Assembly (NCBI RefSeq): GCF_041154745.1
Contig: NZ_AP031573.1
Span: 1,302,001 to 1,366,000 of the forward strand
Reading direction: 5' to 3'
Source of the DNA: Flavobacterium sp. CFS9
Lineage (GTDB): Bacteria > Bacteroidota > Bacteroidia > Flavobacteriales > Flavobacteriaceae
DNA: 64,000 nucleotides
The notes beneath the pieces were generated by a model. The model worked only from the letters and a program-made list of their open reading frames with translations, ran no database searches and was not told the DNA's origin. Shown piece after piece: positions 24,779 through 29,568 of this stretch; within the stretch, counting starts at the first letter, position 1; the number at the start of each line of letters is the position of its first letter. The position numbers and the translations under genes are program-made.

Positions 24779-25861
24779 TTATGCATTGAAAACTTTTTCC
24801 TGGTGACCGATACTCTCCTGGTGAATGGCTTTAAACATTCTCAAAACGAATTCTTCAGTAAGTCCTTTTTTCTCTCCTTCCAAAATCATTTTTCCTAAGA
24901 TTTCATTCCAACGGTTGTTTTGAAGAATCGCAACGTTCGCATCTTTTTTCACCTGTCCGATTTCATCAGCAACTTTCATACGTTTTCCAAGTAACTCTAA
25001 TAAATTAGCATCCAAAACGTCGATGTTAGCTCTTAATTTCTTCATTTTTTGGTTGTACTCGTCTGTAGTATCATCTGTTTTTCTGATGGTCAAATCTTTT
25101 ATGATTTGTTTCAGCGCATCAGGAGTTACTTGTTGAGCGGCATCACTCCAGGCATTGTCCGGATCGTAGTGCGTTTCGATAATCATACCATCGTAATTCA
25201 AATCTAATGCTTCCTGAGTCACTTCGAAAATCATGTTACGGTTTCCGGTAATATGAGATGGATCGATGATTAATGGTAAATCAGGGAATTTGTTTTGCAA
25301 TTCGATTGCAATCTGCCATTCCGGAATGTTTCTGTATTTTGTCTTTTCGTAAGTCGAAAATCCTCTGTGAATTACCCCTAATTTTTCGATTCCCGCCATG
25401 TGTAAACGCTCTACACCACCTAACCATAAAGCTAAATCAGGGTTTACAGGATTTTTAACCAAAACGATTTTATCCGTTCCTCTCAAAGTATCTGCAATTT
25501 CCTGAACTGCAAAAGGGTTCGCTGTTGTACGGGCACCCACCCATAAAACGTCGATATCGTGTTCTAAAGCCAATTTACAATGTGCTGCTGTTGCTACCTC
25601 AGTTCCCATTAGTAAACCGGTTTCAGCTTTCGCTTTTTGTAACCATTTCAAACCAATTTCTCCAACACCTTCAAATCCTCCCGGACGCGTTCTTGGTTTC
25701 CAGATTCCTGCTCTGAATACACTAACTTTTGAATCTTTCAATTCACGTGCAATTTTCAATACCTGATCTTCTGTTTCTGCGCTGCATGGTCCTGCTATCA
25801 CAAGTGGGTGATTTAAATTGAAATCTTCTAACCACTTTCTCATTTCTTTCTTATTTTCCAT
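24779..25861 (-). CDS. Bifunctional DAHP synthase/chorismate mutase
   Basis: 360 residues. The N-terminal 260 form a type I DAHP synthase (GPCSAET near 20, KPRTRPGGFEGVG near 55, TEVATA near 83, IIDPSHITGN near 200), making the first intermediate of the shikimate pathway from PEP and erythrose-4-phosphate. The C-terminal 90 form an AroQ chorismate mutase (YNQKMKKLRANIDVLD, LLGKRMKVADEIGQVKK). In Bacteroidota this fusion is usual, with the mutase domain giving prephenate feedback control. It is the last gene of the operon, 12 bp after tyrA, and is therefore under the same leader-peptide attenuation. Confidence 0.95.
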   Translation of the reverse strand: MENKKEMRKWLEDFNLNHPLVIAGPCSAETEDQVLKIARELKDSKVSVFRAGIWKPRTRPGGFEGVGEIGLKWLQKAKAETGLLMGTEVATAAHCKLALEHDIDVLWVGARTTANPFAVQEIADTLRGTDKIVLVKNPVNPDLALWLGGVERLHMAGIEKLGVIHRGFSTYEKTKYRNIPEWQIAIELQNKFPDLPLIIDPSHITGNRNMIFEVTQEALDLNYDGMIIETHYDPDNAWSDAAQQVTPDALKQIIKDLTIRKTDDTTDEYNQKMKKLRANIDVLDANLLELLGKRMKVADEIGQVKKDANVAILQNNRWNEILGKMILEGEKKGLTEEFVLRMFKAIHQESIGHQEKVFNA

Positions 25862-25873
25862 CTTTGTTATAGT

Positions 25874-26731
25874 TTATTTTTTAATTGTTAATCCGTTTAA
25901 TATTTCTTTAATTTTATTGGTGCTTTCCATTTCTTCAAAAATGGCGCTGTAATCTTCTTCTTTTAACAAATCCCTAAACCGACTGAGATTTGAAATGTAT
26001 GCTTCTAAAGTTTCGAGAACGTATTCTTTATTCTGTTCAAAAATTGGTGTCCACATTGCAGGAGAACTTTTGGCCAGACGTACTGTACTTTCAAATCCGC
26101 TTCCCGCCATATCGAAAATATCCTGTTCATCTTTTTCTTTATTCATTACTGTTTTCCCAAGCATAAACGAGCTGATGTGAGATAAATGCGACACATAAGC
26201 AATGTGTTTGTCGTGCGACACCGGATCCATATATCGAATCCTCATTCCTATTTCGCTAAAAAGCTTCAATGCTTTTTCCTGCAATTTAAAAGTGGTTTTT
26301 TCCACTTCGCAAATAATATTCGTTTTCCCTTTAAACAACCCTCTTATTGCTGCCGAAGGTCCTGAGAACTCTGTACCGGCAATTGGATGTGTGGCAATAA
26401 AATTTCTTCGTTTCGGGTGACTTGCTACCGCATCACAAATTGGTTTTTTAGTTGAACCTACTTCAAAAACAATTGTTTTGTCGCCCACTACATCCAATAC
26501 TTTTGGCAAAATCGTTAGTGCCACATCTACAGGGACCGAAACAATTACAAAATCAGCTCCTGACAAATCTTCAAAATGCCCTTCCTGATCAATAACCCCT
26601 AAATCAATTGCTTCCTGCAGGTGTTTTTCGTTACTGTCAATTCCAAAGACAGCTGCATTTGGATGTTGGTCTTTGATGTCCAATACCATCGAACCACCAA
26701 TTAATCCTATTCCTATTACGTATATTTTCAT
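25874..26731 (-). CDS. tyrA: Prephenate dehydrogenase
   Basis: 285 residues. NAD-binding GIGLIGGSM at residues 6-14, catalytic-domain HPIAGTE (about 115) and SHLSHISSFML (about 185) are intact. It converts prephenate to 4-hydroxyphenylpyruvate, the tyrosine branch. The protein has no ACT domain, so any feedback control would come through other enzymes or the leader peptide. The 100-bp gap before it contains a dispersed repeat. Confidence 0.93.
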   Translation of the reverse strand: MKIYVIGIGLIGGSMVLDIKDQHPNAAVFGIDSNEKHLQEAIDLGVIDQEGHFEDLSGADFVIVSVPVDVALTILPKVLDVVGDKTIVFEVGSTKKPICDAVASHPKRRNFIATHPIAGTEFSGPSAAIRGLFKGKTNIICEVEKTTFKLQEKALKLFSEIGMRIRYMDPVSHDKHIAYVSHLSHISSFMLGKTVMNKEKDEQDIFDMAGSGFESTVRLAKSSPAMWTPIFEQNKEYVLETLEAYISNLSRFRDLLKEEDYSAIFEEMESTNKIKEILNGLTIKK

Positions 26732-26830: not shown

Positions 26831-27976
26831 CTAAAATCGCTCTATCGCTTCTTGTACTTTTTCTTCTTTAACACACAATGAGAATCTGATGTATCCTTCA
26901 CCGTTGCTTCCGAAAATAGTTCCCGGCGTGATGAAAATATGTTTCTCGTATAATATTTCATCAATGAACTTCTCTGCTGATGCTATTCCTTCCGGAAGTT
27001 TTGCCCAAACAAATAAGCCAACTCCTTCTTTATAAACTTCGCAGCCTAATTTTTCAGCCAGCTTTTCTGTTAATTCTCTACGGCGTCTGTAAATTACATT
27101 CTGATCTTCAAACCAGCTTTTATCACAATTTAAAGCTGCAACAGCCCCTTTCTGAATTCCGTAAAACATACCGCTGTCCATATTGCTTTTTACTTTCAAA
27201 ACAGCATCGATAGTTTCAGGTTTTCCTAAAACCATCCCTACTCTCCAGCCGGCCATATTGAATGTTTTACTTAATGAATTCAACTCTAAAGCCACATCCT
27301 TTGCCCCTTCAACCTGCAGCAAACTCATTGGATTATCATTCAAAACAAAACTATACGGATTATCGTTAACCAATAGTATGTTATGTTTTTTGGCAAAAGC
27401 AACCAATTTTTCAAATAACTCCAAACTTCCTCTTGCACCCGTTGGCATATGCGGATAACCCAGCCACATCAATTTTACTTTCGAAAGATCCAGTTTCTCT
27501 AAAGCTTCAAAATCAGGTTCCCATACATTTGCTTCTTTCAAATCATAATAAACCGGAACCGCTCCAACCAAATTGGTAACCGAAGTATAAGTCGGATAAC
27601 CTGGATTCGGAATTAAAACCTGATCGCCTTCATTTAAAAATGCTAACGAAATATGCATAATTCCTTCTTTCGAACCCATCAACGGTAAAATCTCATTGTT
27701 AGGATTCAACACAACACCAAACTGATTCTGATAAAAATCAGCCATTCCTTTTCTCAATTCCGGCAATCCCTGATAGCTTTGATAGCCGTGCCCGTTTTCT
27801 TCCATAATCGCCGCGGCTACCGCTTCAATTACTGCTTTAGACGGACTCAAATCAGGGCTTCCGATGCCCATATTGATGATAGGTTTCCCTTCAGATTGCA
27901 GCTGACGAACTTCTCTCAACTTTGAGGAAAAGTAGTATTCTTCAACTGTATCTAATCGTTTTGCTGTTGTGATCAT
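26831..27976 (-). CDS. PLP-dependent aminotransferase (probable aromatic)
   Basis: 381 residues, fold-type I class I/II aminotransferase. The Schiff-base Lys is in SLSKTFNMAGWRVG (about 235-248), with NPGYPTY (about 124) and GYPHMPTGA before it. It sits between pheA and tyrA, so it most likely catalyses the last step from phenylpyruvate and hydroxyphenylpyruvate to Phe and Tyr. Sequence alone does not separate aromatic from LL-diaminopimelate or aspartate specificity. The 141-bp gap to pheA carries copy 2 of the dispersed repeat. Confidence 0.88.
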   Translation of the reverse strand: MITTAKRLDTVEEYYFSSKLREVRQLQSEGKPIINMGIGSPDLSPSKAVIEAVAAAIMEENGHGYQSYQGLPELRKGMADFYQNQFGVVLNPNNEILPLMGSKEGIMHISLAFLNEGDQVLIPNPGYPTYTSVTNLVGAVPVYYDLKEANVWEPDFEALEKLDLSKVKLMWLGYPHMPTGARGSLELFEKLVAFAKKHNILLVNDNPYSFVLNDNPMSLLQVEGAKDVALELNSLSKTFNMAGWRVGMVLGKPETIDAVLKVKSNMDSGMFYGIQKGAVAALNCDKSWFEDQNVIYRRRRELTEKLAEKLGCEVYKEGVGLFVWAKLPEGIASAEKFIDEILYEKHIFITPGTIFGSNGEGYIRFSLCVKEEKVQEAIERF

Positions 27977-28117: not shown

Positions 28118-28945
28118 TTAAGGTTTGGTATTTCTGTATTCTCCCAATACTTTAAAATATTCTGCCATAATGTTTAATAATGATTTGGCTTTTGCAAAAT
28201 CTTCGTATTTATCAAAAGTTACATCTACGAAAAACGAATATTTCCAAGGGGTTTCGATTTTTGGAAGCGACTGAATTTTGGTCAGATTCAGTTTGCAGTC
28301 ACTCATTACATTTAAAACCGCTGCCAAACTTCCTCTTTTATGATCCAGTTCAAATTTAATCGAGGCTCTGTTGATTTCATTTTCCGGCAGAAATGAATTT
28401 TGCTTTTTAATAATTACAAAGCGGGTCATGTTATTTTTGATAGTTTGGATTTCAGGAGCGATAATTTCTAAATTATACATTTCTGAAGCCGTCTTACTCG
28501 CAATCGCTGCAATTCCGGTCAATTGTTTTTCCTGAATTCTCCTTGCCGTTTCGGCCGTATCTTTATCCTCAACCAATTTAATATTGGGGTATTGTTTCAA
28601 AAAATCCATGCATTGCAATAAGGCCATCGGATGCGAATGAACCTCTTTTATATCTTCAATTTTCTGACCTTTTAAAGCCATTAAATTTTGATGAATATTC
28701 AAATAATGCTCTCCGATAATGTGAATATTATTCTTATCAATCAAGGCATAATTCGGAATAATTGGCCCTGCAATCGAATTTTCAATGGCCATTACTGCCT
28801 GCTCCGATTTTCCTGAAATCAGACTGTCAATTAATTCTTCAAAAGATAAACACTCATCAATATCCACGTTTTCAGAGAAATACTCCTTCACTACCTGATG
28901 GTGAAAAGATCCTTTAATACCTTGTATTGCAATTTTCGTTGTCAT
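28118..28945 (-). CDS. pheA: Prephenate dehydratase
   Basis: 275 residues: the prephenate dehydratase domain (1-180; GIKGSFHH, ENSIAGPI, and the NMTRFVII active-site motif near 165) followed by an ACT domain (about 195-270; FELDHKRGSLAAVLNVM, then IQSLPKIETPWKYSFFVD), which in this family binds Phe for allosteric inhibition. It makes phenylpyruvate. There is no fused chorismate mutase; that activity is on the DAHP synthase gene of the same operon. It is the first gene of the operon, and its ATG is only 13 bases after an attenuator hairpin. Confidence 0.95.
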   Translation of the reverse strand: MTTKIAIQGIKGSFHHQVVKEYFSENVDIDECLSFEELIDSLISGKSEQAVMAIENSIAGPIIPNYALIDKNNIHIIGEHYLNIHQNLMALKGQKIEDIKEVHSHPMALLQCMDFLKQYPNIKLVEDKDTAETARRIQEKQLTGIAAIASKTASEMYNLEIIAPEIQTIKNNMTRFVIIKKQNSFLPENEINRASIKFELDHKRGSLAAVLNVMSDCKLNLTKIQSLPKIETPWKYSFFVDVTFDKYEDFAKAKSLLNIMAEYFKVLGEYRNTKP

Positions 28946-28951
28946 ATATTC

Positions 28952-28980
28952 AAAAAAAAATCCTGATTTGCATCAGGATT
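28952..28980 (-). terminator. Attenuator hairpin in front of pheA
   Basis: Minus strand: AATCCTGAT, loop GCAA, ATCAGGATT (9-bp perfect stem), then a run of nine Ts. It ends just before the pheA start codon. Its 5' arm is also complementary to a leader segment at 29027-29034 (AGGATTGT with ACAATCCT, 8 bp plus a G-U), giving a mutually exclusive antiterminator. Confidence 0.85.
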
Positions 28981-29011
28981 GTATATTAGTTTTATTTGTC
29001 TTTTAATTTTC

Positions 29012-29092
29012 TCAAATAACCATAGCACAATCCTCACTTCTACTAAAGAAGAAATAAAAAGAGTTGCTAAAATAAAAACGGTTATGGGTCAT
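29012..29092 (-). CDS. Phe/Tyr-rich leader peptide of aromatic operon
   Basis: A 26-codon ORF, ATG to TGA, not listed in normal ORF sets because of length. Residues 6-16 read FYFSNSFYFFF: six Phe and two Tyr in eleven codons. It starts about 25 bases after the predicted transcription start and its stop is 32 bases before the attenuator hairpin. The 8-base antiterminator segment lies at codons 19-22, just past the Phe/Tyr run. A ribosome stalled for charged tRNA-Phe or tRNA-Tyr would leave that segment free (operon on), while one that finishes would cover it (terminator forms). This matches pheL-type leaders of Proteobacteria in layout, although the sequence is unrelated. Confidence 0.85.
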   Translation of the reverse strand: MTHNRFYFSNSFYFFFSRSEDCAMVI

Positions 29093-29122
29093 TTTGTTTG
29101 TGTTTATCAATAAAATTCTTTG

Positions 29123-29152
29123 CGAATGTATAAATTATTTTTACCGCACCAA
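29123..29152 (-). promoter_or_regulatory. Promoter of the leader and aromatic operon
   Basis: Minus strand: TTG, exactly 19 bases, then TACATTCG (7 of 8 to TAnnTTTG with the first two bases kept). The leader ATG follows about 25 bases after the expected start site, giving a leader RNA of roughly 160 bases up to the hairpin. Confidence 0.6.
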
Positions 29153-29262
29153 AAAAAATAATACTTTTTATGAAACAAAAAAGGATTTCTTAACAAATTT
29201 ATGATGTTTTGTAGGATAATATAAAAATATCCACTTAAAATGAGATATTTACAATTGGTTTT

Positions 29263-29568
29263 TTTGAAGGTTCTAAGGTTCTGAGACGTAAAGGTGCTAA
29301 GTTTTTTTGCCACAAATTCACGAATGATTTCAAACTGGTATGGTTTTCAAATAAAAAATTCGGGAATTCGTAGCCATCACATTATCCTCAAAACAATCCT
29401 GTAACTGGTGCGTTCTTTGAAAGTACTAAGATTCTGAGGTACAAAGGTGCTACGTTTTTTTGCCACAAATTCACGAATGATTTCAAACTATTATGGTTTT
29501 CAAATAAAAAATTCGGGAATTCGTAGCCATCACATTATCCTTAAAATAATCCTGTAACTGGTGCGTTC
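29263..29568. repeat. 153-bp direct tandem duplication
   Basis: Two copies abut without a gap: 29263-29415 and 29416-29568, with exact 153-base period and roughly 90% identity by eye. The second copy includes the last nine codons of the DUF1501 gene (NAPVTGLF and stop). The first copy repeats those codons with synonymous changes (TTA to TTG) and TGA in place of TAA. The rest is downstream non-coding DNA containing the phrase ttgccacaaattcacgaatg. Confidence 0.9.

Follow-up and report, generated by a model that had tools for sequence, protein, structure and literature searches.

In Escherichia coli, pheA is preceded by a Phe-rich leader peptide and a terminator, and in the ilvGMEDA and thrABC operons of the same species one leader reads several pathway-related amino acids. 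Bacteroid-trp (RF01692) has been listed among the cis-regulatory motifs of Bacteroidetes (PMC2864571) and likened to the E. coli trp leader (PMC6414381). Leader-like short open reading frames (ORFs) are mentioned for Bacteroides thetaiotaomicron (PMC7366714), his attenuation is treated in general terms only in PMC8305728, and a 2010 attenuation survey by Lopatovskaya et al. is cited in PMC4833913. For Flavobacterium psychrophilum, Guérin et al. (2021, PMC9723704) reported that pheA is preceded by a 5′ element that is both structured and conserved, together with clues to leader-peptide attenuation at operons for amino acids. No description of pheA leader anatomy in Bacteroidetes was recognised in the open-licence literature, which was mostly judged from titles and the first parts of abstracts. 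The present analysis concerns the pheA leader of Flavobacterium sp. CFS9, located within a 64,000-nucleotide (nt) stretch of contig NZ_AP031573.1 (positions 1,302,001 to 1,366,000; referred to as the window). On the basis of its anatomy and of covariation among relatives, this leader is very probably a ribosome-mediated transcription attenuator of the Trp/Phe type, which would control the aromatic amino acid operon.

The leader follows the order promoter, leader ORF with the antiterminator arm inside it, terminator and pheA, all on the minus strand (Table 1), with the pheA ATG at 28945. An earlier, sequence-only reading of the locus had named a promoter, a 26-codon ORF with FYFSNSFYFFF at residues 6–16, a 9-bp hairpin with a T run, and the pheA ATG, all of which were found in the sequence. 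The promoter is one that we take to be of the Bacteroidetes type. The hairpin, with its GCAA loop, spans 28980–28959, and the run of nine Ts 28960–28952. The same reading had placed the 8-base segment AGGATTGT after the ORF and had called it complementary to the 5′ arm of the hairpin; the complementarity held, to ACAATCCT at 28982–28975, but the segment (29034–29027) lies within the ORF, in codons 20–22. The 5′ arm of the terminator has two alternative partners, i.e. its own 3′ arm or this segment of the leader ORF, and terminator and antiterminator are mutually exclusive. The likely protector hairpin and the second, inner antiterminator helix were absent from the earlier account. Among ATG-initiated ORFs of 8–45 amino acids on both strands of the window, the pheA leader was the only one with at least 7 Phe or Tyr per 11 residues, and its peptide had no Pfam or NCBIfam match.

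The leader was then scored upstream of pheA in relatives, by a criterion of at least 6, or more strictly at least 7, Phe or Tyr in 11 residues. All 80 named Flavobacterium loci, taken as the best 80 among 256 relatives, had it at both thresholds; being close relatives (94–98% PheA identity), they add little independent evidence. In the genus sample, where 42 of 61 genomes had a pheA match and where 12 of the named loci duplicate 200-nt upstream sequences, 38 of the 42 loci carried the leader (35 by the stricter criterion), two further loci being cut off by contig ends. The family sample gave matches in 166 of 179 genomes; from the 164 matching genomes of other genera, 128 upstream regions were taken by descending PheA score, leaving out the 36 most divergent, and 125 of these had the leader, 123 of them at the stricter threshold. 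In controls made from the other-genus upstream regions, that threshold was reached by 0.27% of the dinucleotide shuffles (2560 in all) and by a single one of the 128 reverse strands. Leader and terminator occurred together in 122 of the 128 loci.

The region holds no more terminator-like sites than expected by chance, which would agree with a chance ORF next to either a plain constitutive 5′ hairpin or a terminator belonging to an upstream transcript. The conservation of the leader ORF (123 of 128 loci vs 0.27% of shuffles) contradicts this, as do the joint changes in the antiterminator and terminator arms described below and a promoter motif conserved just upstream in the genus, and this explanation is hardly credible. 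The motif TAnnTT[C/T]G was found in 67 of 77 distinct genus upstream sequences vs 3% of shuffles, mostly 37–38 nt before the leader ATG, and the strict form TAnnTTTG in 9 of 77; beyond the genus, the looser motif was not clear (15 of 121 vs 7% of shuffles).

Within the leader, it is the aromatic character of the block that is retained. Comparison of similar aromatic blocks showed that 652 of 852 codon changes stay aromatic (348 synonymous and 304 from one aromatic residue to another, counted without correction for phylogeny), and in other genera the residues flanking the block vary freely while its Phe and Tyr content is kept. Both observations bear on a nascent-chain arrest of the type exemplified by TnaC, in which free Phe or Tyr would be sensed by the peptide in the ribosome, instead of slow decoding when charged tRNA is scarce. 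The invariant RFYFS in the leaders of all 80 named Flavobacterium loci would suit such a sensor. The free variation of the flanks and the predominance of synonymous changes or swaps among Phe, Tyr and Trp within the block speak against it, and so does the fact that the N-R and MVI codons conserved in Flavobacterium fall within stretches of predicted pairing, which can explain their conservation without a peptide function. We regard arrest by the nascent chain as improbable.

Trp codons were also present in the block. In other genera of the family, Trp was found in 83 of 121 distinct peptides, and when the block was chosen on Phe and Tyr alone, Trp made up 81 of 1331 residues inside it vs 2 of 1430 outside. 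Within the genus, 11 of 44 distinct peptides contained Trp and 33 were without it, as is the leader of the window. A Trp codon in the block fits the operon, which in the window holds DAHP synthase, the enzyme of the first step shared by the Phe, Tyr and Trp pathways. A tentative but by no means far-fetched view is that the leader of the aromatic operon is old within Bacteroidia and, in most relatives, would read all three aromatic amino acids together.

The arm in the ORF and the 5′ arm of the terminator change jointly. At the variable position, 150 parsed of 193 distinct sequences combined A-T (105), G-C (38) or G-T (7) in the ORF arm and terminator arm, respectively, and A/C in none; the other 43 comprised 17 rows with an unparsed arm and 26 fitting neither core. 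The leaders of 55 of 118 other-genus loci contained a 6-bp stretch complementary to the terminator core by Watson–Crick pairs only, vs 53 of 2360 trials in which a different core was used; with G-U pairs allowed, such a stretch was present in 95 of 118 loci, shuffled segments giving 453 of 5900. In the alignment A1 (30 of the 87 distinct genus leaders, most of the near-identical named loci being omitted, as well as L031–L034 and L040 because their antiterminator region aligns poorly), the terminator was 100% paired and the outer antiterminator helix 95.5% paired, each with 11 rows carrying a compensated pair.

Folding of the sequence up to the 5′ arm of the terminator (z −3.21) gave the antiterminator together with an inner helix in which the last part of the ORF pairs with the spacer. 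The inner helix was paired in 91% of cells, and its 17 double-change cells and its covariation score of 0.240 were each reached by none of 500 shuffles; its four pairs with two-sided changes were reached by 129 of 500 and its pair types by 100 of 500. This helix can explain why the MVI-encoding bases are conserved where the reading frame stops earlier. In turn, the minimum free energy (MFE) fold of the whole leader consisted of the protector hairpin and the terminator (z −2.56; −1.55 for the leader segment alone). The protector hairpin likely sequesters the antiterminator arm, a role suggested by the folds, with weak support from the comparison.

A structured 5′ region with mutually exclusive terminator and antiterminator could as such also belong to a metabolite riboswitch, a T-box or a protein-bound leader controlling the terminator, the short ORF being incidental. 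However, no Rfam family reached its gathering score anywhere in the window, T-box and known riboswitches included, and across the family the conservation of the ORF with its aromatic codons exceeds chance, making this very improbable. A permissive Rfam scan of the leader returned 15 sub-threshold matches, of which only RF01859 was meaningful by its architecture.

Several results weigh against attenuation by a translating ribosome, or against its generality. The leader was missing from two of the 42 genus-sample loci, both with divergent pheA (46% and 40% identity), and from three of the 128 other-genus loci. Beyond the family, where loci were scored for the leader only, it was found at the stricter threshold in under half of the loci, i.e. 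in 7 of 16 for the order minus the family and in 7 of 15 for the class minus the order. Outside the class Bacteroidia, with kinship taken as the search tool assigned it, none of 28 new phylum loci had it even at 5 or more Phe or Tyr, these being only the best-scoring Pfam matches (102 of 118 searched genomes had a match). The leaderless order and class loci include four divergent PheA of one family (L251–L253 and L257) and two loci from genomes of about 0.6 Mb (L255 and L258). Order and class loci were anchored by tblastn, in place of a protein motif that had located the start of the gene at 4 of 36 loci; L251 was poorly anchored by tblastn, and its negative result rests on the protein motif.

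On the pairing side, one locus outside the joint-change count (L034) had an imperfect complement, 23 of the 118 other-genus loci lacked a full 6-bp complement even with G-U pairs, and with such pairs 665 of 2360 different-core trials also yielded one. The covarying pairs in the terminator and the outer helix (one each) were matched by nearly all shuffles, and the 11 compensated rows may reflect few events, because a single position is concerned in both helices. For the protector hairpin, 85.7% of cells were paired vs 84.6% in shuffles, and slid controls equalled or exceeded it in pairs with two-sided changes. RNAalifold found no common structure for the leader-only region in all 89 genus rows, and two clades (73 and 11 rows) each folded alone. 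Finally, the region contained 3 terminator-like sites, including the candidate at the operon end, with 2.9 expected in shuffles; as the terminator scan alone is at chance level, it is the conservation that carries the case.

The spacing of the parts is conserved as well. The distance from the start of the last aromatic codon to the antiterminator arm is 13 nt in the window, with medians of 13 nt in 116 genus loci and 15 nt in 111 other loci; the stop codon falls between 2 nt upstream and 21 nt downstream of the first base of the arm (5–95% range; loci not deduplicated). Judged by ribosome footprints in general, the arm would be accessible while a ribosome is stalled in the aromatic block and would be covered by one that has reached the stop codon. 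Leader, arms and spacing being conserved, the comparison supports the attenuator that the sequence-only reading had proposed. The reading had expected Phe and Tyr codons to be conserved in relatives with compensatory changes in both stems, and both were observed; the opposite pattern, a hairpin kept where the ORF is lost, does not describe the family, in which leader and terminator are found together in 122 of the 128 other-genus loci.

The attenuator would work as follows. RNA polymerase would transcribe the leader while a ribosome translates the peptide. When charged tRNA-Phe or tRNA-Tyr is scarce, the ribosome would wait within codons 6–16 and open the protector hairpin. With 13 nt between the start of the last aromatic codon and its own first base, the arm at 29034–29026 would stay free during the stall and would pair with 28983–28975, and the last part of the ORF would join the spacer in the inner helix. 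The antiterminator thus formed would block the terminator, and pheA and the following genes would be transcribed. With plentiful charged tRNA, the ribosome would reach the stop codon and cover the arm, allowing the terminator (28980–28952) to form, and if no ribosome has loaded, the protector hairpin would hide the arm and transcription would end too.

Among 165 distinct leaders, A was found at −3 in 85% and at −6 in 67%, and a Shine-Dalgarno-like motif in 2. With A-3 and A-6 so frequent, the start context agrees with what has been reported to determine initiation in F. johnsoniae (PMC6847099). Some genus leaders (such as L014, L021, L023 and L027) stop early after FFRK, just before the arm, with the downstream RNA conserved; in these the arm would still be under the ribosome at the stop codon. 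L023 and L025 have no ATG at the position of the PheA start of the window, and an ATG nearer the terminator suggests an N-terminal extension of PheA.

The genes downstream of the leader (Table 1) were named by Pfam as those listed in the sequence-only reading, i.e. pheA, an aminotransferase, tyrA and DAHP synthase/chorismate mutase. By this gene content, the predicted operon would serve the same amino acids that its leader encodes. Among 138 longer pheA loci, each with only 1.5–3 kb of downstream sequence, the aminotransferase was matched in 137 and tyrA in 124.

Table 1. Features of the pheA leader and the predicted operon in the window (positions in window coordinates).
Feature	Positions	Strand	Remarks
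Promoter	29152-29123	-	TTG at 29152-29150 (-33), 19-nt spacer, TACATTCG at 29130-29123 (-7)
Leader ORF MTHNRFYFSNSFYFFFSRSEDCAMVI plus stop	29092-29012	-	26 codons and stop, read from the sequence
Likely protector (1:2) hairpin, sequestering the antiterminator arm	29085-29016	-	MFE folds
Sensing codons 6-16, FYFSNSFYFFF	29077-29045	-	8 of 11 codons aromatic (Phe/Tyr)
Antiterminator 5′ arm AGGATTGTG	29034-29026	-	Codons 20-22 and next base; partner 28983-28975
Inner antiterminator helix	29022-28987	-	29022-29013 with 28998-28993 and 28990-28987; fold and alignment
Antiterminator 3′ arm TACAATCCT	28983-28975	-	Overlaps terminator 5′ arm
Intrinsic terminator AATCCTGAT-GCAA-ATCAGGATT and T run	28980-28952	-	9-bp stem; sequence and alignment
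pheA, prephenate dehydratase	28118-28945	-	PF00800 (PDT), E 4.3e-58
Class I/II aminotransferase	26831-27976	-	PF00155 (Aminotran_1_2)
tyrA, prephenate dehydrogenase	25874-26731	-	PF02153, PF20463 (PDH_N/PDH_C)
DAHP synthase fused to chorismate mutase	24779-25861	-	PF00793 (DAHP_synth_1), PF01817 (CM_2)
Possible terminator at operon end	24673-24640	-	15-bp stem, T-rich tail; consensus match only

Just upstream of the pheA promoter, a 128-nt direct repeat was present in two copies (29260–29387 and 29413–29540) with 91% identity, the second of which reaches the edge of the region searched (29540) and adjoins the 3′ end of a DUF1501 gene at 29541.

Elsewhere in the genome, the region upstream of its own trpE matched RF01692 (L316:1260–1384, 74.3 bits, over the gathering threshold) with the leader MNNTWWWKNLRQTS, and upstream of its own hisG (L315) the His-rich leader MISNQLHHHHFHYCSQAMC was followed by a terminator-like hairpin with a T run, likely a His attenuator. 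Together with the pheA leader, these bring the likely attenuators of the genome to at least three.

Taken over the relatives, the results suggest that in Flavobacteriaceae, and perhaps in other Bacteroidia, the aromatic operon is commonly regulated by attenuation of the Trp/Phe type, a mechanism that requires ribosome and polymerase to move in step. If true, the ribosome would stay near enough to RNA polymerase for attenuation to work in a phylum where Shine-Dalgarno sequences are rarely used. The collected leaders could also seed an RNA family model, as no Rfam 15 family matches the pheA leader at its cut-off.

Among known families, the whole 125-position model of Phe_leader (RF01859) aligned over 28952–29093, and with 21.4 bits vs a gathering score of 55 (E 0.26) the locus is not a member. 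In comparison with the E. coli type of pheA leader, the present one has Tyr codons too, with Trp in many relatives, and no Shine-Dalgarno-like motif, and its operon adds the aminotransferase, tyrA and DAHP synthase/chorismate mutase. RF01692, which had no match in the window, is likewise a leader-peptide RNA of the same phylum, but has Trp codons and belongs to another sequence family. With the ilvGMEDA and thrABC leaders, the reading of several amino acids is shared, whereas the residues are aromatic and the phylum is different here. For the F. psychrophilum element (PMC9723704), the available text lists the element without explanation and gives no pheA anatomy, sensed residues or covariation. 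In view of that element and the accompanying leader-peptide clues, the earlier statement that no Phe/Tyr leader was described in Flavobacteria was too strong. With the present comparison, such a listed 5′ element of flavobacterial pheA becomes a putative switch with named arms. It is not a new kind of attenuator and is partly in print; what is added is its anatomy, covariation and range, and the Trp codon in most other genera.
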